64,000 nt of DNA, taken from NCBI GenBank assembly GCA_000310025.1, contig FN649738.1:560346-624345 (forward strand), in the 5' to 3' direction. The stretch is from Ectocarpus siliculosus. Its lineage: Eukaryota; Sar; Phaeophyceae; Ectocarpales; Ectocarpaceae. Positions 15,987-30,263 of this stretch are shown one piece after another (positions within the stretch are counted from its first letter, which is position 1; each line of letters opens with the position of its first letter). The notes under the pieces were generated by a model. It did not search any database. It worked only from the letters and a program-made list of their open reading frames with translations, and was not told the origin of the DNA. Position numbers and translations under genes: made by a program.

Positions 15987-16380
15987 GACAGTCGTCTCAC
16001 TTTTATAAAAGTCCCCAAACTGACTGTTGGTAATGGGCACCCACCTCACTTTCATAAGAGTCAGCTGACTGTTATAACAGTGTGTGAACTGACACCTCAC
16101 TTTCACAAGGGTCAGCTGACAGTCGTTTCACTTATATAAAAGTCCCCAAACTGACTGTTAGTAATGTGCACCCACCTCACTTTCATAAGAGTCAGCTGAC
16201 TGTTATAACAGTGTGTGAACTGACACCTCACTTTTACAAGAGTCAGCTGACTCTTATGAAAGTGAGTAAATTGACTGTCATAACAGTGAAATAACGATGA
16301 CTGTTATGGGAGTGAGCCGACTGTTATAACAGTCAATCCACTGTTATAACAGTCAAATATTCACTTTTATAACAGTGAAT
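15987..16380. repeat. Array of the 14-bp palindrome ACTGTTATAACAGT with a 131-bp tandem duplication
   Basis: Perfect copies of ACTGTTATAACAGT lie at 16068-16081, 16199-16212, 16320-16333 and 16340-16353. Many half-sites and relatives (CACTTTTATAA, CACTTTCATAAGAGT) lie around them. A 131-bp unit is duplicated in tandem, 15987-16117 and 16118-16248, with only a few differences. Related CACTTTTATAACAG motifs also occur at about 14936-15020. It lies inside the LTR-flanked element, just upstream of its right repeat. Confidence 0.85.
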
Positions 16381-16765
16381 CCATTTATAAGATTGTGTGG
16401 GAGCCCGGGAGGGCAGTAGGAGTAAATTGCGACAGACCTTTGTTTGGGCTTCGTGGGAGTAAAATCGTGGCATTGGCTGCATACGTTTTGGACTTTGTTG
16501 GGTACTAGGGAAGAAGGTGATATTGAAACGTGGCGGGAAGGTTACCCGGATCGATGACGTTGTCGGAGTTATCCTGTTTGCTTCTCTATCTTGCTTTTTA
16601 GTAGTACCATCCTTGGGAGGGAGGGGTTTTGACCCGGTGGCCGGGTTTCCCATTAGGTTTTTATTGATTTGTCGTTTTTGCGGAAAAAACCTGACTTGAG
16701 GTGGCGGAAGCACGCATCCCACAGAAGAAGTGGTTAGTTACTTTTGTGTAAAGAACCAGGGAGGG

Positions 16766-17184: not shown

Positions 17185-20100
17185 CTAATCGTGAGGTTCC
17201 TTTGAGTCCATGCCCTCCAATACGGCATCGAAAGTGGTCCGTGCGCGGGGCTCCCCAACCCAGCAAGCCTTGGCGATTTCCACGATGTCCGCAGGAGCAT
17301 CGTGACGGAACGAAGGCCGCGCTCCCATCAACACCGCGGACAGTATCTCCCTAGGGCGAGTTTTGTTCGCCCAAGGAAGTTCGCCTGACACCACTTCCCA
17401 CACAACGATGCCGAAGCTGTAGACATCGCTGGCGTAGGTGCTACCACCAGATTCGAGCACCTGAAATTACCGACGAGAGACGCAGAAGCCACACTTCAGT
17501 TGGATTCTTACCCTGCTTCGTCAGAGAGAACCGGCGTGTGAAAAACGCGACGAGCAACAGCTGAGCATCTTCTTTACGGCAAGGACCCCAGCTCTATTGA
17601 TGACCCCGGCGAGAGGATGAGTCTGGCTTTGACCCCAACCACTTGTAACTCGGAAGGCCGGGGTTGTCTAGGCCGGGAGCTGTTTGGGGGGTGGCAATCT
17701 CGATACTAGCAACAACAGGTGCGAAACAATACAATCCTGGACAGCGTGCAGGCACGCTCTCATTCCAAGGGGCGACATGCACAACAACAGTGACAACCGT
17801 CAATGTTCAGGCATAACACCAATGCAAAGTCTCGAAAGACGCGTGCCGTAAGCTGGTCAGCAAGCACGAATTATCCCCCCAAGGCAGAGATAGATATAAC
17901 AGCGTATCCAGGATTGAAAGGAAGAACGCACCTCCGGGGCGCTCCAGGCGAGGCTCATCTGAGTGCTGGGTTTGGTGGTGGTATACGTAGCCAAACCAGT
18001 TGAGTGTGTATGCTGCGACCATCTGGAGGTACCGAAATCTCCAATCTGGACAATTGGAAAAATTATGACGTCGGGGTGGGGCGGGTCAAGATGAACAACT
18101 GTCACAACCCTAACCCTAAGACACACCCCGAACTATGCCCGACTGCAGCGTAGCTCCTCTCTGCTCCCCACAAAGTCCGCGAATACGAGAACAGTCCGTC
18201 TTAACCTAAAACGTCATCAATACGAGAATATGTACTGTATGCTGTTCATGCTGATTCTGCATAGCGCTGCAACCCTACCTTTGCTCGTCCAGACCCGTCG
18301 AGAAGCACGTTGGCTGACTTGAGATCGCCGTGAACTGTGTCCTTCTCATGAAGGAAGGCCATGCCCGCGCAGATGTCTCCGATGATGCGCCTGGATTGCT
18401 CCTGGGGAAGGGGCTGTTCAGAGGTCCTCAAAAGCGTTCGGAGGTCACCACCAGAGAGCAGCTCCATGACGAGAACCATATGGTCTGGCTGAGACGTGAC
18501 CGCTCCGTAGACGTTGACCGTGTGAGGGCTCCTCAGACGGATCATGGCATCGAGCTCTCGCAGGAAGGCTCTTCGCTGACTGTCGTTTTGGTGGTGCTTG
18601 ACCGGCCCGGGGGGGGGGAGTCAGGAGCATCCTCCTCAATGAGTTCCCCTAGATGGTGGGCGATACGTAGTACCTTTGTTGCAAACGTAGTGGTAGCACC
18701 AAATCGGTACAGCAAGCGATCGAAACGCGTACTATTCTTGAGAAACAACAACAGCAACCAACAGCAGGGCTGAAAGTACAGGATGGTTCCAGAGCACCAC
18801 CCATGTGTAGGAGAGGGCACATGCCACCCCGGATAATGCATGCTAGATATGACGTGGTGTTTTGCGATTACGCAATATTCATGCTCTCATGTATGCCACG
18901 GCAGATACGTAGAACCCCCGTGGAACGGGAGAAAGCTCAACTTGCCGCCAAAACAACATGAAATCGTGCACTGGTTTTCCGGGTTTTTCGGTCCGTTGTC
19001 TTCCCCCAAAACACCGCCGGTTGTTGGATGTGGCCCCGATGTATCACTACGTTGGAAAGACGAACTATGAATACCTTGGCGGCGGCGTTACGACCGTTAT
19101 AGTCGGCGAGGTACACCTCGCCGAAGCCGCCCTTTCCGAGAACTTCGTTCGTGATGGTCAGGTGTCCCTCGGGGATCTCGACTTGATCTAGCTTGCGCTG
19201 ACGCCTTGTTCTACGAGCGTCCGCCAGAGACTCCGATTGGGCCTCCGCAATGGAACCCTGGCAAGAACAAAATAAAGCTTTCCACGTCATGACTGTGCGA
19301 GCGCCACCGGAAATTCACCGTCATGCCTAGAGGACCTGCGTTGTATCGCCCACAGCCGAAGCGTGTCGGTTCCAGCCAAGGTATAAGATTTGCTCTTTAT
19401 AACTGCAGGACAAACATTCGGCGACATCGGAAAAGCGGAATGTATGCCTCACCTTGTATTGGTCCATTCCTGTCTTGATCGCACTTACGTCTTGTCCGAC
19501 TTGCATGTGGAGACCCAACTGGACAGGCCGAGAAACAATAACGACCGCAAGTTCAAAATATCGAAGCGAGTCCGCGAAAATGAAGGCATCAGGGTAGTAA
19601 AGCACGCACGCGTTTACGACACGCATACTGCTACGCGCACACTATCGATCGCTCTTCACGACGAGCTTCCCAATCTAATACCCGGCTCTCTCAAAAAGTG
19701 CCGACTCTTTCTGAAATGAGAATGTACTCAAGTCACCACACACCTGAAGGCGCACCATGGCCCTGTCTACGACCGCATCAAGCTCGTCCTGTCGCCGCTT
19801 GAAGAGGGTCGACATCAGCACCTTCGAAAGCTTGTTTTTACTTTGGTACGTTTTGATGAGCTCGACGAGGTCGAAGATTGCCTCATGCACGTCTTCGATC
19901 AACATACGGGTCACCTCCCCGGTCGTATTTTCACCCTGAAATTGATACGCGACGACATGCCGGGGCGACAATTTCTAACAATGGGTTGCCAGAGACACCC
20001 TCTCTCGCCTAAACGGTAATCATTACCGCAACGCCTGGAATATAAGCAAGATGGTACTGCTCCCAAGGTATCAACCCAAATCCTCGCGAGACTCCACCAC

Positions 20101-23100
20101 TATCATAAATGAAGGACGTCGACCATTGAGAGCGTGTCTAGCATTTCACAACCGCGAACATCAAATACGAAGACATGCAAGGGCCCCGCGTCAACTCACG
20201 TTACCAGCCACCTTGTCGGCCCGGTTGAGCAGAATGATGATCGAGCGGCATTGCCTGAGTCTCCCGTCACTCCCGCCGTTGTTGTCGCAGCTATCCGTCA
20301 CCAGATTCACCAGAAGGGAAACCAGTGTTGCTACCTCGCTGACACCAGGAACCTGGCAATGGTGCGCCAGCTCCTGGGCTAATAGCAAAACAGCCTGGCC
20401 ACCCCCCACACTAGTAACGACCGATGCTCGGTGGCTATCGGTTTGGGAGGTCTCTCCCTTGCCTGAGACTAGTATATGGTCGTCGGCAAAATGGGGTGTG
20501 CCTTTACGGCTGACGGCGGTAGTATCGGCCCGCTCACCCGGCAAGGTTGTGGTGGAGCTCGTTGTTGTCAAGGACTGGTCCGCTGAAATAGCTTCTTCAA
20601 CCACGCATGGAAACGCAACTCCTCGTGTATTCATCCGGGTTTGTGCGGCCTGTTCGGTGCTGCGTGATGCAGACCCTCCGGGTGCAGCTTCCGATGCCAC
20701 GGCCATGCCTTCGACACCCGCCACAACCTCTATTGGCTTGCGCATGTGCGGAGGCTGGTTATTGCCTCCATGAACAACGGTTGGCGCATGCTGCTTAGCG
20801 CCTTGCTGATTGTCACCCTCACGGCCATGCTCGAAGTTATCATCGTTGCTGATAGGAGGGACCACCGAACCAGTCTTCATGCCCTTCGCTCTTTGCCACC
20901 TCTTGTACCAGATAGCAAGGGCGATGAAGATAGCAGCGGCAACCGCGGAAACCGCCCCGGCTACGATTGGCGTAGGGCTCGGGGCTGACTCATCCCCCGA
21001 AAGAACGTCCAATGAGTCGACTGTCGAGGAAATCCCACCTGAAGGTGCCAACGTCGAGGAACTGCGGACTGACGGTGCCAGTGTAGGAGCAGGTAGTTCG
21101 ACAGGTGTATCAGAAGGTGGAAATGCATGTGCCGGAGTGGCTGGCGCGGGACTCAGTGCGACGGTTGGTGACGTCGTTGGGGGTGTTGAGGTGTCGAGAG
21201 TGGAGGTGTTGAGCAGGACGACCAAGAAATCTTCAGAGCCAAGATTGGGTTCTCCTCCCCAAGACCCATTGATACTCCCGACCATTACCATCCTCCCGTC
21301 TGAGCCTGCCGCCATCCCCCGGAGCATGAAGTCATCTGAAGAACTTCCCTGCCGGTTACACAGCCGGCACACACGAAACAATGGGCGCATGGCGTCCGTC
21401 GGTATAATGATCGCCGTGGTGCAGCGAACGAAGTTCTCTTCCTGCGGTAGTTCCTAAATATGCGTACAAAGTTGGAGAGACAAGTGCGTGCCTCTTGATT
21501 TGAGCGTACAAGGAGCACACCCATTTTAGGAGTTCGTCAAGAGCAGTTACCTGCTTCCAGCGCCAGATCTCTTGTCCGTCAGCCCCTAGCATCACTGTCG
21601 CAATATCGGAAGATCCCACACGTTTGTCGGACATAACCTGAGATCCCCCCGTTCTTCCGGCGAGAAGAACAGTACCGTCTTCTTGCACCGAAACTGCGTA
21701 AATTACGTTGTACTCGACCTCATAGCCGCCCTGTCCAACCAACACGTTGTGAAACGAAACGGTGAGGGATCATGACGGCACTTAGTGCCCGAATCTACTT
21801 ACTTTTACGGTATACAACACGGTACCAACAAAAGAACCGTTACGGGCAGACCCAAAAAAGTCGAACTGTGTCTCTTGTGCCTGTAGTAAACGTCTAACGG
21901 GATCTATCGACGAGCGAAGTCATGACATCTTCGCCAACAATGCCTGAGATAATATAAAGAAGGAATACCATACAGCGCTCACGAACCTACGCCGACGGTA
22001 CCGGAGGCTGACATGCACCTTGGTGCGCTGGTCCACAAAAATGTTTTTCCTGCGACACCTTCGGGCTAGCCACCAAGTTGTTCTGTACGTGTCGAAGTGT
22101 ACTTTTGGTGTTTGAACAGCGTTGTCTACAGGCCATGGAAGATGTCACTTTGCCTGGCGTTGCCGAATGCATGTCTTGTGATGTGACCACTCCGTGGTCA
22201 AACAAAGCCTGTACCGCGCCTAGCGTTCTGAATCAGAACACGTAATCGGGTTTGTTGCCACTAAAGTTTATCCCGTTACCGGCTGGAACAGTTACAGAAT
22301 GCATGCGGACAAGTTCCTCAATGTTACGACAGCAACAGTAGCAGCAAACTACAATCACCTGCCACCTCCAAACCTCCGTTCCGTTCGCATCGAGCTTCAC
22401 CGCGGCGAAATCACATTCCTCGCCCGTCAAGCCCCCGCTCCACTCGCCAAACGTATACCCAGCCAACACGACGAACCCGTCCCCCGTGGCCGCAGCAGCT
22501 TGAATTTCGTCGCTTGAGCTGGTACCATCCTGTGTATCGATGGAATCAACGTCGATGGACAACAAAACGCTGGGTAAACCATGAACATACAATACCATGC
22601 TGTTGAACCGGCCAACCGCGATCGGAAACCGCACGGTATTTCGCCGGAACGTATCTCCTTTAATATCGCGTATGTGATGGTACGTACCTGCGGCCACTAT
22701 CTCTCATGATCTCAACGCGGTCTGCGTTGTTTTGTTGCGCTCTTGTTGACCGACATGGATTCCCACAACTCTTTTCAAGGACTACCTTATGTCGTCGTGT
22801 TGGTTCCTGGTGCCAATCCTGTTCGCGCGGTTTGCTCTGTGATTCGGGAGCTTAAGGCTGGATGCTTGCGAGCACCACCAACAGCTGGCCATGTGCAGAC
22901 CTTTCAAAGGAGCCCCAAGCGCGTGTAGTGGACCGGACTCGAGCTTGTACAGGCATATGTATTTACTGAAGGATAAAAACATTGGAGAACATCCGCCATT
23001 CACGCAGAGTTTTGGCTTCAGTTCCGTCGGTAGTTCGCCCTTGTAAGATCTCGGGCATCGAAAAGTACCACTCATCGCCCATTCTGTGGAAGTTGCAGTG

Positions 23101-26100
23101 ACTCTGGTTGAATCCCGTCATAACCCCGTTGTGCGTTGCGATAGCCTTCCCAGTTGTGGAACAACCAAACCAAACGCTCAGGTGATATTTATGATTTGTC
23201 CAAAGCCATGTGTATGACTCACCAACGCCGACAGAGTTCACCCTTTCACTTCGCAGACATACTGAACAGCAAAATCGAACAACCTGCCACGTCCACAGTG
23301 TCGTCCCTCCTGAGTCAAGCTTGATGGCGACGAAGTCTAAGCTTCCAACAGATGGCCCCGAGAAATCCAGCGATGTCATCCCTGCCATGATGACTGACCC
23401 TTCCTCATCCGCCGACACCACAGCCCACAAGATGTCGAAGCCGATAGTCCCATCCTGCGGGACAAAAATATAGCGCAAATATGTTCCAAGGGAAACGAAT
23501 CTAATCCATCGCCAGCGGGTTTCACACTCCCCTCGCTGTCTCTGTAGCTGGTTGCATATTGCCGGAATAACGGCTAGTGACCATCAAGTGCTTCGGAGCT
23601 GATCAGGTTCTTGTGTGTGGTATACCCCGCTTGCAAAATGTTGGGCGTTGCGAATGTTGAAGTGAAAACAATATCTTCAACAGTGTAGTACAGTCAATTT
23701 CGAGCTCTGAGTGAATACGCACCTGAGCCAAACGAACGGACCCAGGAAAGAGGATTTGAAGCCGCTGTATACGACTGGCAACGGATGAGCACCCGCATGC
23801 GATATCCACAGTACGGCCAACAATCAGCCCGCATCAACCCCAAAGTTACTGATGTCAGTCTCTTCGCAACCTGATCCTTTCCCACAACACAAAGGGTGCA
23901 CGACGGTACTCGAACAAGACACTCAAAGAGCCAGAATTGGCGGAAATTGCCCAGATCGCCGGATACCTCACCAACGGTCGGGCAGATGGTCACACAAGCC
24001 CAGGAAATATGCCCATGTGTTTCGGAGACACCACTCTACATGGCAAACGACAACATTCCTGGAGACAACAACCACGCATTCCAAGGTATGTAAACTGTCC
24101 GCCAAACTACCCGAGGCATGGCTCAGAAGCAGTGACACGTGCTTATCGGCATCGAACGCGGTAATCGGCTGACGAATCGACCATGTTAGCCTTGGTGGGA
24201 CCCAACTTCAACACGTTGGCGCGCAGATGAGCGTTCTTGTGCGGGTGGAAGTTGATTTCTCGGTGTGTGTCAGTGCAGTTTTTTTTCGAAGGCATTCGTG
24301 CCCTCCATGTCAACGCCGATGGCGACAAACATATGTGGAGATGGAGTTTCGACTTGGAGTCAGTCCACCTACAGTAGTATGAGGTCAGGTTTAGAAATAT
24401 CATCTACAAAGCGTGCATTTGATTCCCGGCTCCGGATCGAAAAAAGTACATCTTGCCGAACTTGCTGAAGCAAAGTTTCGTAGAAGCTCTGGATTAAGCA
24501 AGGTGTGCCGAAGTACGACAATTGATTGTGGAGAGCGACCCTACGCGAAACATTTTCTCAGTCGAGGCTCCATAAGATCATTGATGAACTGTTCAAATAT
24601 TGACACGGAAGTGATCACAAACTATAACGTACGGGGATAATGCAAGAGAAGTTGCGCTGAGGCGGGCATAATCAGTGATGCCATGCCGGCCATGGCACAT
24701 TTCAATGCAATAGTTCACCTGCCATTTCCAGAGCAGATTGCCGTCGCCGTCCACTTTGTACGCGATGAAGTCGTATCCCCCCACACTCGGGGTGGCCCAC
24801 TCGCCGTCATTGATCGTCCCGACGGCGACCACGGAGCCACTGTCTGATGCCGCAACGCCGTAAGCTCTGCAATTTGCGTCAATAGAGTTGTCCTGGTCAC
24901 CAGCGAACGCAAAATGGGTGGAATGGACACCACCAAGTCAGCTCTATCGAAGAGGCGACACATTGCTTCCCGGAAAACCAGCGTTGATCAATACTGAGAT
25001 CCGTGTCGTCGTCGGGGAGTCAGGTGACGGATAGACGCGACAGCAATGGCGGGGGTGACTTGATGAAAAAAATCGACGAACCTGCCACCTCCACAGCTCC
25101 ACTCCTTCATAGTCAAGCTTGAGCGCTGCGTAGCCTTGGTAGTCGCCATCTACGGTGGACCCGGCAAGGATCACGGATCCATCCAGGCCTATGACTGCTC
25201 CGGCCACGTATGACAGCGTTGTTCCGTTCTGTGGAAGACGCAGATCTCAGGCAATAAAGGTGATCAATTTCGACCGACTTTGTCACAGCGGGAAATAACC
25301 CGCATCGGTCGAGCTGTAAGACAGCATTGAGTTGGTGGGAACTTTTTTCGGCTACCAGATAGAACGTCAATGTTGAACTCTTGGCCTTGGTGCGAGTTTC
25401 CCTCATGCTTCCGTTCTAGGCCCGTCCGATAGGGTGGGCAGCTGAATCCACATCATTCTACTGGGCTCTGCAGTAGGCTCTCAAACCGATCAGAGTGTGA
25501 AACAAGTTGTGCTCGCTCGAGGTTCCGAAAGTGTCGGAGTTAGAAGCGGCAGGCAACAACGTTGCAACAACGACCTTCCTTCCCTTGCGACATGCGGCGG
25601 CGGTAGACAGCGTGGCCAAGCCACATACGTTCACAAGGGAACTCGACGCGAAGATCCGCGGATGCAACCCACAACTAGTTGCAACGCCATAACACAACAC
25701 GAGAGCCACAAACTACTGTAACATTGCGCCCTAAGCGTACCGAGACTGAACCAGTGAATCATCCGCAAGCCGGCGGTGACCGGAGGTACCTAACTTCGGC
25801 GTGAGATAAATGTGGCCAACTCACCAGCCACTCCCATACCACCGCCCCTTCTTCGTCCACTTTCAGTGCCGCCCAAGCAGGATTGTCGACGTCTATTCCC
25901 ATCCAGTCTCCGAATGTATATCCTGCATCAGCAGACGCCCGGACGTAAGTTCAACGGCCTCGTGTGTATAGAAAGGTTGTTCTCTCGTTATTAGTCTATT
26001 GCCGGTCTGCCTCTCCTGCACCCTTGCCGCACAACACAACTAACCCAAAAAGAATAGGACACAGGAAAGCCAGTCTTACCGGTTGTGACAGAGGACCCAT

Positions 26101-26149
26101 CCGAACCCATCACTATCGCAGAAAATGCATCTTCTTCGACAGTCCCACC
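17185..26149 (-). CDS. Receptor-like TKL protein kinase with seven-blade propeller-like ectodomain and four-helix-bundle region
   Basis: Fourteen exons, high to low coordinate: 26149-26080, 25922-25825, 25228-25082, 24892-24719, 23454-23284, 22529-22359, 21730-21551, 21348-20200, 19935-19744, 19518-19453, 19257-19075, 18596-18279, 18045-17932 and 17460-17185 (TAG). They join in phase to 1102 residues. Residues 1 to about 387 are seven repeats of 45-60 residues, six ending in WxW plus Q, L or KQ (such as ELWRWQ, LLWKWQ). A Ser/Thr/Pro stalk and one membrane span (about 465-484, GAVSAVAAAIFIALAIWYKR) follow. Residues about 650-806 resemble the MLKL/HeLo-like four-helix bundle often preceding TKL kinases (KNKLSKVLMSTLFKRRQDEL). 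The kinase has LGKGGFGEVY, AAAK, HGDLKSAN (Gly for the HRD Arg), DFG and APE, so it looks active. Family knowledge suggests surface-ligand sensing; the ligand is unknown. The signal peptide and first exon were not found. The unusually long intron 24718-23455 may hide more. Confidence 0.88.
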
Positions 26150-27457
26150 CTGCGTAGCCCAAAACCACGCGTCGAAGTGACCGGACAAAGCAAGGATAGG
26201 TGACGGCGAAAATGATGGACGTGAGTTTTGGGGGGGGCGATAGAAATATTCAAGTATTTTTGCTTCACAGGCGCTCGGCTGCGGAGCCGCTGGTCTGACA
26301 ACCACTAAAAAAACCCGACTGCATCACAAATACCGTTCAAGACTTTCAACCGTCTCAGCTCACACAACGTGCATGAAGGTTTAGACGAGGACGTTGCCAC
26401 ATGCACGGATGGGAGAGAGGGGTCCAAAACAATAACACTTCATGTTTCGATCAAACTCAAGAACGTGTGACCCGTTCGTGTGGATTCCACACGACAGAAG
26501 TGTCACGGTGTAACTGAGGGAGGGATACCCAAAGCATGACCTGCTACATTGTACCGTAGATTTTCGCTTCCATCACGTTAATTTTCGGGCATAACAAATT
26601 CCAAAAACTACCCTGTTTTTTTATACAAGATATGATCTCTTGCAAACCCATAGCCCTGTTCCCTCAAGGCTAATGGTGTACTGTAAATGCACAACAAAAT
26701 GGTACGCCACGCACCAGAGAGCACCTAAACCGCTCAGTACATGTATGTGTGAAATATTGTCAATAAATAATCAATACTAGCACAAAGTGTGACCCCCGTG
26801 AGGCTTTCTTGAAGTTGACTCTAAACCCCAACAGCAGGGTTGCAGGAGCAGCAATTTGTAAAACAGTACCGGGTAGATAGAGTGTTTTGGCCGGGGCGGA
26901 GGTATGTATGCACCCGTTGTTGTACCAGGAGCGGATTTGCTACATAGACTAAATATATCACAACTGTCAACCAACCTGTGACACTGCTCCCTCTTCCCCG
27001 ACACTGCTGTATACAGCAATCGGGACGGGCAGCGTCGGACGCTGTTTGTGCCGCTCCTTTACGGTGAGCAATGCTAAGTCGGCCGGCTGCAGTCTAGGAA
27101 AAGAATAGTAGATCGATGGAGCAAGACGTAAGTAACATCACGAAATCCTTAAACAATTACACTGTAGACTTTTGGGGCTTCGTGTTTTTATGGTGTGGTG
27201 TAAGGTGACACCAGACTAAACTTCTCAAAAGAGAGCGGGGGAAGGGAAGAGGTAGAGGCAGAAGAGCATGTATGCTGTAGAGAGAGTGCGATGCAGCTGT
27301 ACAGGCAAAGTGCCCCTGTGATCTACGCTCTGTTGCAACTGCGAAGGTAAATCCCCGGTGTCATAATCTACGAGACAGGACTCTGAGGACATTCACCTGC
27401 TGGACGTTCAATTTTCACAGCGAGTGGTATTCTATCTTCCAAACGACGCTTCCTGAC
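26150..27457. other. Region upstream of the receptor kinase exons
   Basis: The receptor kinase's first exon (start codon, signal peptide) and promoter should lie here or beyond, but I could not place them. No minus-strand frame shows a convincing hydrophobic leader joined to a GT donor of the right phase. No other gene is seen. Confidence 0.45.
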
Positions 27458-27544
27458 CTCGACATAGCTCAGCCCGGTAGAGCGACAGACTGTAGTGGCA
27501 ACCGTAGTCATCTGTTGGTCCTTGGTTCGAATCCGAGTGTCGAG
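27458..27544 (+). tRNA. tRNA-Tyr (anticodon GTA) with a 14-nt intron
   Basis: The acceptor arms CTCGACA and TGTCGAG pair over all seven positions. The D stem is GCTC/GAGC and the anticodon stem ACAGA/TCTGT. The T arm CTTGG-TTCGAAT-CCGAG pairs with one G-T. The loop reads CTGTAG, then a 14-nt insert directly after position 37, then A38, which is where eukaryotic nuclear tRNA-Tyr introns sit. Internal promoter boxes are intact: A box TAGCTCAGCCCGG and B box GGTTCGAATCC. The mature length is 73 nt before CCA addition. Long minus-strand frames across it are shadows. Confidence 0.96.
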
Positions 27545-27547
27545 ATC

Positions 27548-27552
27548 TTTTT
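27548..27552 (+). terminator. RNA polymerase III terminator of the tRNA-Tyr gene
   Basis: A run of five T starts four bases after the tRNA 3' end, with further T-rich sequence behind it, which is the usual Pol III stop signal. Confidence 0.8.
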
Positions 27553-30263
27553 CTCTCTTTTTCTGTGTCAGATGGACTTGTCTCTGCTTGCGTGTGAAGC
27601 ACCAAGATTGAACCAAGGGGGTGTACCTCTTTCTCTCTGGCCCGTGATGCTGACTCCTAGTACCTCGCATAGCGCGCAGAGGGAGCGGAGGACTCCAGAA
27701 TATCTGTCGTTGATTTCTGTTGACTTGTGGACCCCTCGGGGCCAGTTTGTTTGAGTGTACCTTTTTAGGGTAAGGTTGCCTGTGACCACGGGAATCGACC
27801 GCGTCAAGTGTTGGGTCAGTACGGACATATGGAGGTACTGGGTAGAGAGAGATCGGAACGGTATTTAATGTGAAGACAACAACAACAATCCAACATCCCG
27901 GCCACCCACTGAACTGTATACCTTTCTGCAAGTTTGACTGCAGTCAAGTGTATGAATCGAGAAGGAACAACAGTCGCTCAGCGCATATGGTACGGTAGCT
28001 ATTTATTTATCTAGATGCTCTCCCGTGTGCTGTGACCACTGGTATGTCGACGTTGAGGCTTAGACTATTCCTTATCTTCATCTATTCCTCTTTTTCTTTT
28101 CTGTTGCAGGTACGCATACAATATGCCGCCCTCAGGTGTACATGCACACATGCACGGTTTGTTCCATGGAAAACGGCAGATGGACAGCAAAATATCAAGT
28201 GCAACTTTACCTCTAGACCTATAATCGCGAAGTTGGACGGACAAACGGCAGCCTCTTCAGTCTGCCTTTCACTTGCCCACGGTGCTGGTGTATCCTCGTT
28301 TGTTTTCTTCTGACATCATCGCACGTATCACCAACACGAAAGTAGCTAAGGTAAAAGGCGCAGGAACTCTTGTAGCACGCGGAAAAAAAATCCGGACACA
28401 TATGCCACCCCCCCCCCACCCCCTCGGAGGGGGAAAAAACTCCTCCAACTTCCTCATTCGGCGCAGCTGCTGCTAGCAGCTTCGTGGATTTTTTGTTGCT
28501 CCAAAACGTCTGAGAGACGACCTCTGCTTGTAGTTTATTGCGATCATGACCATGCCCTTCAGGTCACCATAGGGCAAGCATCAGATCACCGATTACAGCA
28601 GTACTATGTATGCATACGTTGACGTCTTTCAGATCTTCCTATGTGCTGTCCCTTTCGAGGAGGGCCATCGTGCTACTGTACATGTATGATGCTACTTGGT
28701 GAAAGGGGAAAAACGAGCGTCGAGAAGTCAGAAGGAAACACTATTTCCTATTTCCTGCGGTGCTGCATGCACCAAGGGTCGGATCTACAGGTTCTTAGGA
28801 TCATGGTGTCCTTTGGTTTGGGTGCTGCCTTTGTTGTGCTCGTGCCGCTATTGTATGGTGAGCAAAGTCAAGTCGACCGGCTGTATGTGTGTGCGAGAGA
28901 AGTGACAGACAGAGAGATACAACAAAAATATTGTACGCGTTGTTCGCGTTGACGGTAACAATCGATTCTTCAGTTTTTTTTTAATACATATTCTGGAAAC
29001 GAGAGCGTGGTCTCCGGAAATCCAAAATTCCGTGGTGTGCGCCGGTGAGAAGTAGACCATAGACGGGTAGACACAGTAATTGGGTCTGCTTTGAACAGTG
29101 CGGCACGTACCGCAGTGAGTGGCAGTGCCAACAAGGAGGTTGCAATCGATCGTTGTACGACGTGACCAGGTTGTTTTTCGTCCGGAACTGCTGCTGTCTG
29201 TGAGTGACATGTAGTCTAAGAAGATCTGTTTTGATGAAATGAAGGAGGAGCGATGCCATACGAAAGTTAAACCGTCTAAATGCAAATCGTACCCTCATGA
29301 ATTACCCACCTGCCAAGACCACAGTTCCGTCGCCATTTCTCTGAGCCCTCGTTCAATGGTGTCCAGCTGGGTGTTGCTGTGGGAGAGTGCACTCGTACAT
29401 TTATATAGTAGTAGTAGGCGGTGAACAACGTTCGCTCCGATTTACAGCAAGTGAGTGGTTGGGGTCTGCGCTACGAAACAAATCGTTCATTTTGCCTGGT
29501 GCCCGAAAATCCGACTTTATCTTGCTTGATCTATCTATACATATCTACATATTTTCTCGACCGGTCGGTGCGGTAGCTTTTCTTTCTAGCATTTTGTTTT
29601 CTTTCTCCGAGTGGTTTGTACTCTTGTTTTTTTTTTTTTTTGTGATGACACAACGAATCCATCTCTATTTGAGAAAAAAGTCTAATAAGATAGACTAGCA
29701 TGAATCCATAGCGTCAGAGGAAGGCTACCTGTATTTCCACGATTTCCCAAACAGCACACAGCGACATCTCCCCTGTGGGTAACAGGCTCAACAAGACAGT
29801 TTGGTAGCCGTCTTGTGTATCTCTCTGCATGTTATGCTGGAAAGGGTATTATTCTTGTTTTGCTTCCCCGCGGCGTCGTATGTGCCGGGTTTTGCGACCA
29901 CGGGCTCCCCATTTTTTTGGACTATAGACTAGAGCTAATAATCATGTACATGTAAATGTGAGAGAAACAACAACAACAACAACAACAATTACACACGTTG
30001 TTGAAAACTGTTCGGTCCCCACTCAAGTACGTACGCATATGCGTACCGGTGTACCGGTGTACCGGTCCTATTGCTGCTGAGCCCCCAAACAAGCTTGCTT
30101 GTTGACCAAACCAAACTTGGACCAAACAGGGTACTACAGCAGAGAAGTACACCAAAGGGGGAAAAAAAATGACCGACGGCGTTTTCGCGGCAGGACTGTA
30201 CGCGAGAAACAAGAGGTCTTGCTGCTTGATGCTTGATAGACAAGACAAGGAGGAGTCACGGTG
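27553..30263. other. Intergenic stretch with no convincing gene
   Basis: Contains homopolymer T and C runs (29628-29641, 28410-28422), CAA repeats near 29970 and a GTACCGGT repeat near 30044-30067. On the minus strand, 29304-29370 could be a short exon ending in ELWSWQ before a GTGGGT donor, but no partner exons were found. Nothing else stands out. Confidence 0.4.

Follow-up and report, generated by a model that had tools for sequence, protein, structure and literature searches.

What kind of protein does a long minus-strand gene of Ectocarpus siliculosus encode, and does the helical region inside it belong with the MLKL/HeLo-type bundles that permeabilise membranes? The original prediction, made for a window of 64,000 nucleotides, had read 14 exons between positions 26149 and 17185 as one protein, in which a seven-blade propeller is joined through a stalk and a single membrane span to an MLKL/HeLo-type bundle and a kinase.

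Comparison with paralogues and inspection of splice sites gave a minus-strand model, 29336..17185, with 15 exons. The predicted protein has 1146 or 1111 residues, since the two candidate starts of the large exon, 21453 and 21348, differ by 35 residues. All 14 exons proposed between 26149 and 17185 are present on the minus strand, but the gene does not begin at 26149: a 27-nt exon 1 lies upstream at 29336..29310 and is matched in two paralogues. Two exon starts also had to be moved. Kinase exon 2 was placed at 18596 instead of 18602, because the latter position lacks a preceding AG. For the large exon carrying blade 7, a start at 21348 is more probable than one at 21453, since in the paralogue on contig C1 the matching acceptor is immediately preceded by an in-frame stop. 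In the corrected model all 14 introns are GT-AG, and all are in phase 0 with the sole exception of the intron that splits blade 1. The exon blocks recur in the paralogues, and judged by its sequence the gene is genuine and larger than earlier described. Its features are as follows.

29310..29336, minus strand: exon 1, MATELWSWQ, start codon and putative closing WxWQ strand; matched in the C472 and C1 paralogues
26080..26149, minus strand: blade 1, first of two exons; GT-AG, with the same blade-1 split in C472:202875-217500 and two pieces in C1
25825..25922, minus strand: blade 1, second of two exons; placed by splice sites and the paralogue split
25082..25228, minus strand: blade 2 exon; blade-pair shuffle test
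24719..24892, minus strand: blade 3 exon; blade-pair shuffle test
23284..23454, minus strand: blade 4 exon; blade-pair shuffle test
22359..22529, minus strand: blade 5 exon; blade-pair shuffle test
21551..21730, minus strand: blade 6 exon; blade-pair shuffle test
20200..21348, minus strand: large exon with blade 7 (no closing strand), Pro/Thr stalk, membrane span, juxtamembrane linker and start of the bundle; alternative acceptor at 21453
20911..20967, minus strand: membrane span IVAGAVSAVAAAIFIALAI, followed by WYKRWQRAK; hydropathy 2.65, the lone strong peak
20200..20436, minus strand: N-terminal part of the helical bundle, inside the large exon; from the family alignment and Pfam on relatives, whose MLKL_N matches omit its first half
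19744..19935, minus strand: bundle exon h2, one of the most conserved (five comparisons, dN/dS 0.06-0.10); inside the MLKL_N matches of relatives
19453..19518, minus strand: short exon h3, at the position of a brace by analogy; read as an exon and recurring in paralogues
19075..19257, minus strand: kinase exon 1 with basic linker, GKGGFGEV loop and AAAK; PF07714, E 3.4e-56, whole domain
18279..18596, minus strand: kinase exon 2 with the helix C Glu and HGDLKSANVLL; Pfam and motif reading
17932..18045, minus strand: kinase exon 3, DFG to APE; exon reading
17185..17460, minus strand: kinase exon 4 and stop codon; exon reading

The seven repeats of the sensor half, built at about one blade per exon, were compared in all pairs. 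Data showed that 18 of the 21 pairs scored above all 300 shuffles, while the three weaker pairs, reached by 1, 4 and 2 of the 300 shuffles, all involve blade 7. The repeats had been described as ending in WxWQ-like motifs throughout; the count of seven stands, but the ending is missing from blade 7, the others being WxWQ in blades 2 to 5, WEWL in blade 1 and WRWKQ in blade 6. A phmmer search of the PDB returned CylK as the propeller match (E 1.1e-23, aligned in three stretches), and the solved propeller of this protein is described as seven-bladed in extracts of its report (PMC8916777). Two NCBIfam models matched below their cut-offs, those of the LipL53 SBBP propeller lipoprotein (E 9.8e-20; 70.7 bits against 400) and delta-60 (E 8.7e-8; 31.9 bits against 76.5), and the Pfam scan of the window protein matched no propeller family. 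Homology to CylK together with the seven repeats upholds the proposed propeller. CylK itself is a cyanobacterial alkylating enzyme that, according to the same extracts, differs in having an extra calcium-binding domain; the likeness drawn here lies in repeat sequence and blade number, not in catalytic or calcium-binding residues.

Comparable propellers occur elsewhere in the genome. All seven blades, with blade 1 split identically, are present in the paralogue at C472:202875-217500, six blades were recognised in the C1 paralogue, and the second C472 copy shows only blades 4 to 7 within the DNA examined. A scan of bacterial genomes with four blades yielded 15 pattern matches, none of which was confirmed. 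Further propeller genes at C12:1526942-1576022 and C24:1515783-1519229 have long open frames of 286 to 725 aa, one match containing an internal stop and some being followed by Pro/Thr-rich sequence; they carry no kinase module within the DNA examined. A search for cytosolic partners of such module-free genes, in the DNA downstream of four loci, gave no domain above cut-off.

When the DNA upstream of blade 1 was compared among three of the propeller receptor genes, one common short coding piece was found, followed in each case by a GT donor. It encodes MATELWSWQ in the window gene, MATELTELWYWQ in the C472 gene and MATEEWYWQ in the C1 gene, and it is from the ATG onwards that all three resemble one another. 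Because blade 7 lacks a WxWQ strand and exon 1 supplies exactly that strand, the ring is likely closed by the N-terminus, with the strand of exon 1 completing blade 7. On this exon-1 model the protein begins directly with the propeller.

The stalk and the single span proposed earlier are both present. Residues 509-527 form the only strong hydrophobic stretch (2.65), with acidic residues before it and WYKRWQRAK after it, and a Pro/Thr-rich stalk stands on the propeller side. Of a receptor-kinase layout, with sensor outside, single span and kinase inside, the span and a basic inner flank are present; a crude rule found no signal peptide in the 4.7, 1.0 and 3.8 kb upstream of the three genes or in intron 1. 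Because no signal peptide was found, the position of the propeller outside the cell is one that we infer. A protein anchored in some other way, with its propeller in the cytosol and hence no surface sensor, would fit the conserved start MATE...WxWQ, which has no signal sequence, as well as the outcome of the rule upstream. We consider this unlikely, given the one strong span with its acidic-to-basic polarity, the Pro/Thr-rich stalk on the propeller side, and the crudeness of a signal-peptide rule applied to those upstream distances alone. A propeller exposed at the surface remains our preferred placement.

At the other end, the kinase matched PF07714 (PK_Tyr_Ser-Thr) over the whole domain with 190.9 bits against a cut-off of 23.1. 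Direct reading of the motifs bears out the prediction of a kinase with all key motifs as far as the full domain, the Lys of AAAK, the catalytic Asp and DFG are concerned; the catalytic loop, HGDLKSANVLL, has HGD in place of HRD, which makes the kinase one of non-RD type. The same loop was read in each of the seven loci that yielded one to the motif search. In the PDB, the best 60 of 604 matched sequences include plant CTR1, Src-type kinases, TAK1 and RIPK1. Non-RD kinases are associated with plant immune receptors. With its motifs kept, the kinase is apparently catalytically competent.

The protein is not a one-off. Searches of the genome (189 Mb, 492 contigs) returned 18 matches to the kinase exon, 47 to three blades and 46 to the bundle. 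With bundle exon h2 as the anchor, 17 sites were obtained; a single disrupted locus accounts for two of these, as its halves, and thus at least 16 loci, the window included, share the helical-kinase module; the count is a lower bound that leaves out three weaker bundle matches. Four of the 16 carry propellers, two carry leucine-rich repeats (LRRs) and the remaining ten have no assigned sensor. The LRRs lie upstream of the module at C33:4136008 (Pfam LRR_8, 1.1e-11, 44.8 bits) and at C16:6728000, where two of three frames were scanned and LRR_8 scored 5.5e-5 and 23.3 bits, under its cut-off of 27. They were identified by Pfam and by eye, a regular expression for LRRs having given none; no sensor domain matched upstream of the C47 (three frames) or C55 (one frame) loci. 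The common signalling half therefore carries at least two types of sensor, of which the propeller is one. Propellers and LRRs are both built at about one repeat per exon, and such sensors on one conserved signalling half are a concrete example of receptors diversifying through repeat change at the level of exons. A tree built from partial sequences of the shared half at 15 loci places the window gene with the two C472 genes. The fourth propeller gene, on C1, falls with LRR genes at a support of 39 percent, which leaves one and two gains of the propeller indistinguishable.

We determined dN/dS by simple counting, with synonymous change saturated in several comparisons. Every block that gave a finite value was below 1; the rows for blades 2 and 3 against C472:110600 and for blade 2 against C1 probably pair blades that do not correspond. 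Against C472:202875-217500, the propeller gave 0.39 (five exons, 280 codons, blades 1 and 7 excluded), h2 plus h3 gave 0.13 (83 codons) and the kinase 0.19 (293 codons). The large exon, which is mostly stalk and linker plus the start of the bundle, evolves faster, at 0.68 against the same paralogue. Values for the bundle exons and the kinase were 0.13 and 0.11 against the C33 LRR sibling, where the bundle was not the slower, 0.07 and 0.12 against the C16 LRR sibling, and 0.10 and 0.10 against C1. Exon h2 alone ranged from 0.06 to 0.10, below the kinase in four of five comparisons and equal to it in the fifth. Thus, the h2 part of the bundle is constrained like the kinase, whatever the sensor.

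Whether this conserved helical region is of MLKL/HeLo type was addressed with the 14 of 16 loci that have an intact spliced bundle; that of C33:4461123 is broken, and the N-terminal part of the C1 bundle lies in another piece. MLKL_N (PF22215) was the top match for 10 of the 14, falling below E 1e-3 in seven of them (best 1.4e-5), and none reached the gathering cut-off of 27 bits (best 25.1). In the other four, the window gene's own bundle among them, Pfam gave no MLKL_N match. The matches begin at profile position 25 or later and end at 121-126, which leaves the first helix region of MLKL_N uncovered. They include a member that shares just 43 percent identity with the window bundle, and none of the seven best bundles matched MLKL_N, at an E limit of 1, once exactly reversed (0 of 7). 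A direct hhalign comparison of the family profile, whose effective depth is only 1.8, with a single sequence, human MLKL, returned a probability of 1.3-1.8 percent. Its score of 18.0 was equalled or beaten by 8 of 200 column shuffles under equal local settings, and the highest score among rotations of the alignment was 18.7; this comparison therefore gives no support to a likeness with MLKL. PDB searches with the bundle, as single sequence and as profiles, gave no MLKL and no meaningful match, and a predicted model of the bundle made from an intron-containing read-through had a pLDDT of 37.

The claim of an MLKL/HeLo-type bundle thus finds support at the level of the family, through sub-cut-off matches that vanish on reversal, and none in the window sequence alone or in the profile comparison with MLKL. 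Sub-cut-off scores throughout, the weak appearance of other helical models (GIT1_C and DYN1_lid) and a profile comparison not clearly above shuffles are what might be expected of an ordinary receptor kinase whose middle part is a helical juxtamembrane dimerisation segment, resembling MLKL_N by convergence among helical bundles. We hold this explanation to be possible but rather doubtful, as MLKL_N leads in 10 of 14 members, with a consistent end in the profile and the 43-percent-identical member included, and as all seven reversals failed to match. On balance, the family data suggest that the bundle is somewhat more probably than otherwise a remote homologue of MLKL_N.

By sequence, then, the protein combines seven blades and a stalk with one span, a helical region that is conserved, and a non-RD (HGD) kinase that appears to be active. 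We judge it reasonably probable that it is a modular single-pass receptor kinase whose MLKL_N-type bundle couples sensor and kinase. The propeller would bind a ligand outside the cell, and ligand binding or clustering would be relayed through the span to the bundle and brace. These may restrain the kinase or assemble it into oligomers, and the kinase would then phosphorylate itself and, next, downstream targets. The bundle is best read as a coupling module, not as a proven pore.

The same parts could in principle form a one-chain death receptor, in which sensing leads to kinase activity or clustering and so frees the MLKL_N-type bundle to permeabilise the membrane in the manner of MLKL and HeLo domains. 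Consistent with this are the MLKL_N similarity of the relatives, a fairly hydrophobic segment in the bundle (1.59), and descriptions, in extracts of the reports concerned, of related bundles with a membrane-permeabilising action in animals and fungi and a part in the immunity of plants (PMC10197012, PMC12881547, PMC10951266). Against it, the bundle lies some 160 residues past the span and not at the N-terminus, and the N-terminal helix whose importance for the action of HeLo domains and MLKL is stressed in such extracts (PMC10197012, PMC12881547) is the very part of the MLKL_N profile that is unmatched here. The kinase looks active, unlike that of MLKL, and purifying selection is compatible with any role. 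We regard a death receptor as very unlikely. Equally improbable is the broadest claim, that of a surface receptor with its own membrane-permeabilising MLKL/HeLo-type bundle, an active kinase and interchangeable propeller and LRR sensors, a protein that would give a lineage other than animals, plants and fungi a death or immunity system at the level of the receptor.

Set beside known systems, the coupling receptor that we prefer shares its proposed order of bundle, brace and kinase with animal MLKL, to which the Pfam MLKL_N similarity of the relatives also points; MLKL differs in having a pseudokinase and an N-terminal bundle, and the direct profile comparison was not significant. Wheat Pm13 and the plant MLKL_NTD-kinase proteins likewise have a bundle, a brace and a kinase with activity residues, and Pm13 mutants in the MLKL_NTD bundle, the brace or the kinase lose resistance. 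According to the extracts of that report (PMC10951266), which describe no sensor domain, Pm13 was observed in both the nucleus and the cytoplasm and carries its bundle at the N-terminus. The immune role of Pm13 was shown by mutants. As membrane receptor kinases, the closest in kind are the brown algal LRR receptor kinases, described in part of one source as independently evolved (PMC8307928), with two LRR-RK genes counted in Ectocarpus in part of another (PMC3268121). Two LRR siblings found here share the helical-kinase half. The Ectocarpus LRR receptor kinases, likened here by description, differ in their sensor, that of the window gene being a seven-bladed propeller, and a bundle goes unmentioned for them in those parts.

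LRR receptor kinases are thus already known in brown algae, and neither a propeller receptor kinase nor an MLKL-type bundle from these algae was found in the literature searched, the coverage of which was incomplete. A large comparative study of brown algal genomes, Denoeud et al. 2024, reportedly discusses receptor kinases and perhaps propeller sensors, and an earlier description is therefore possible. Were the bundle a true relative of MLKL_N, an alga-like lineage would have this module built into its transmembrane receptor kinases, and one could then test if the original task of MLKL/HeLo bundles was coupling to kinases or killing.

Minor observations were made at the related loci and next to the gene. 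The two propeller receptor kinase copies on C472 (110600-118576 and 202875-217500) lie about 92 kb apart on one contig and are nearly identical across bundle and kinase. A kinase-only paralogue on the window contig (C13:156931-160224) has apparently disrupted exons, and a sibling at C33:4461123-4464431, with a frame break and a stop in bundle exon h2, is apparently a pseudogene. Just downstream of the window gene, at 15987..16383, are short tandem arrays with units of 131, 51 and 20 bases. Upstream of the C33 LRR sibling, at C33:4143400-4145400, near-identical units follow each other at about 480 bases; one peptide recurs at 4145338, 4144858, 4144378, 4143898 and 4143421, and LRR exons lie within the stretch. 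This repetition suggests rapid change of LRR number.
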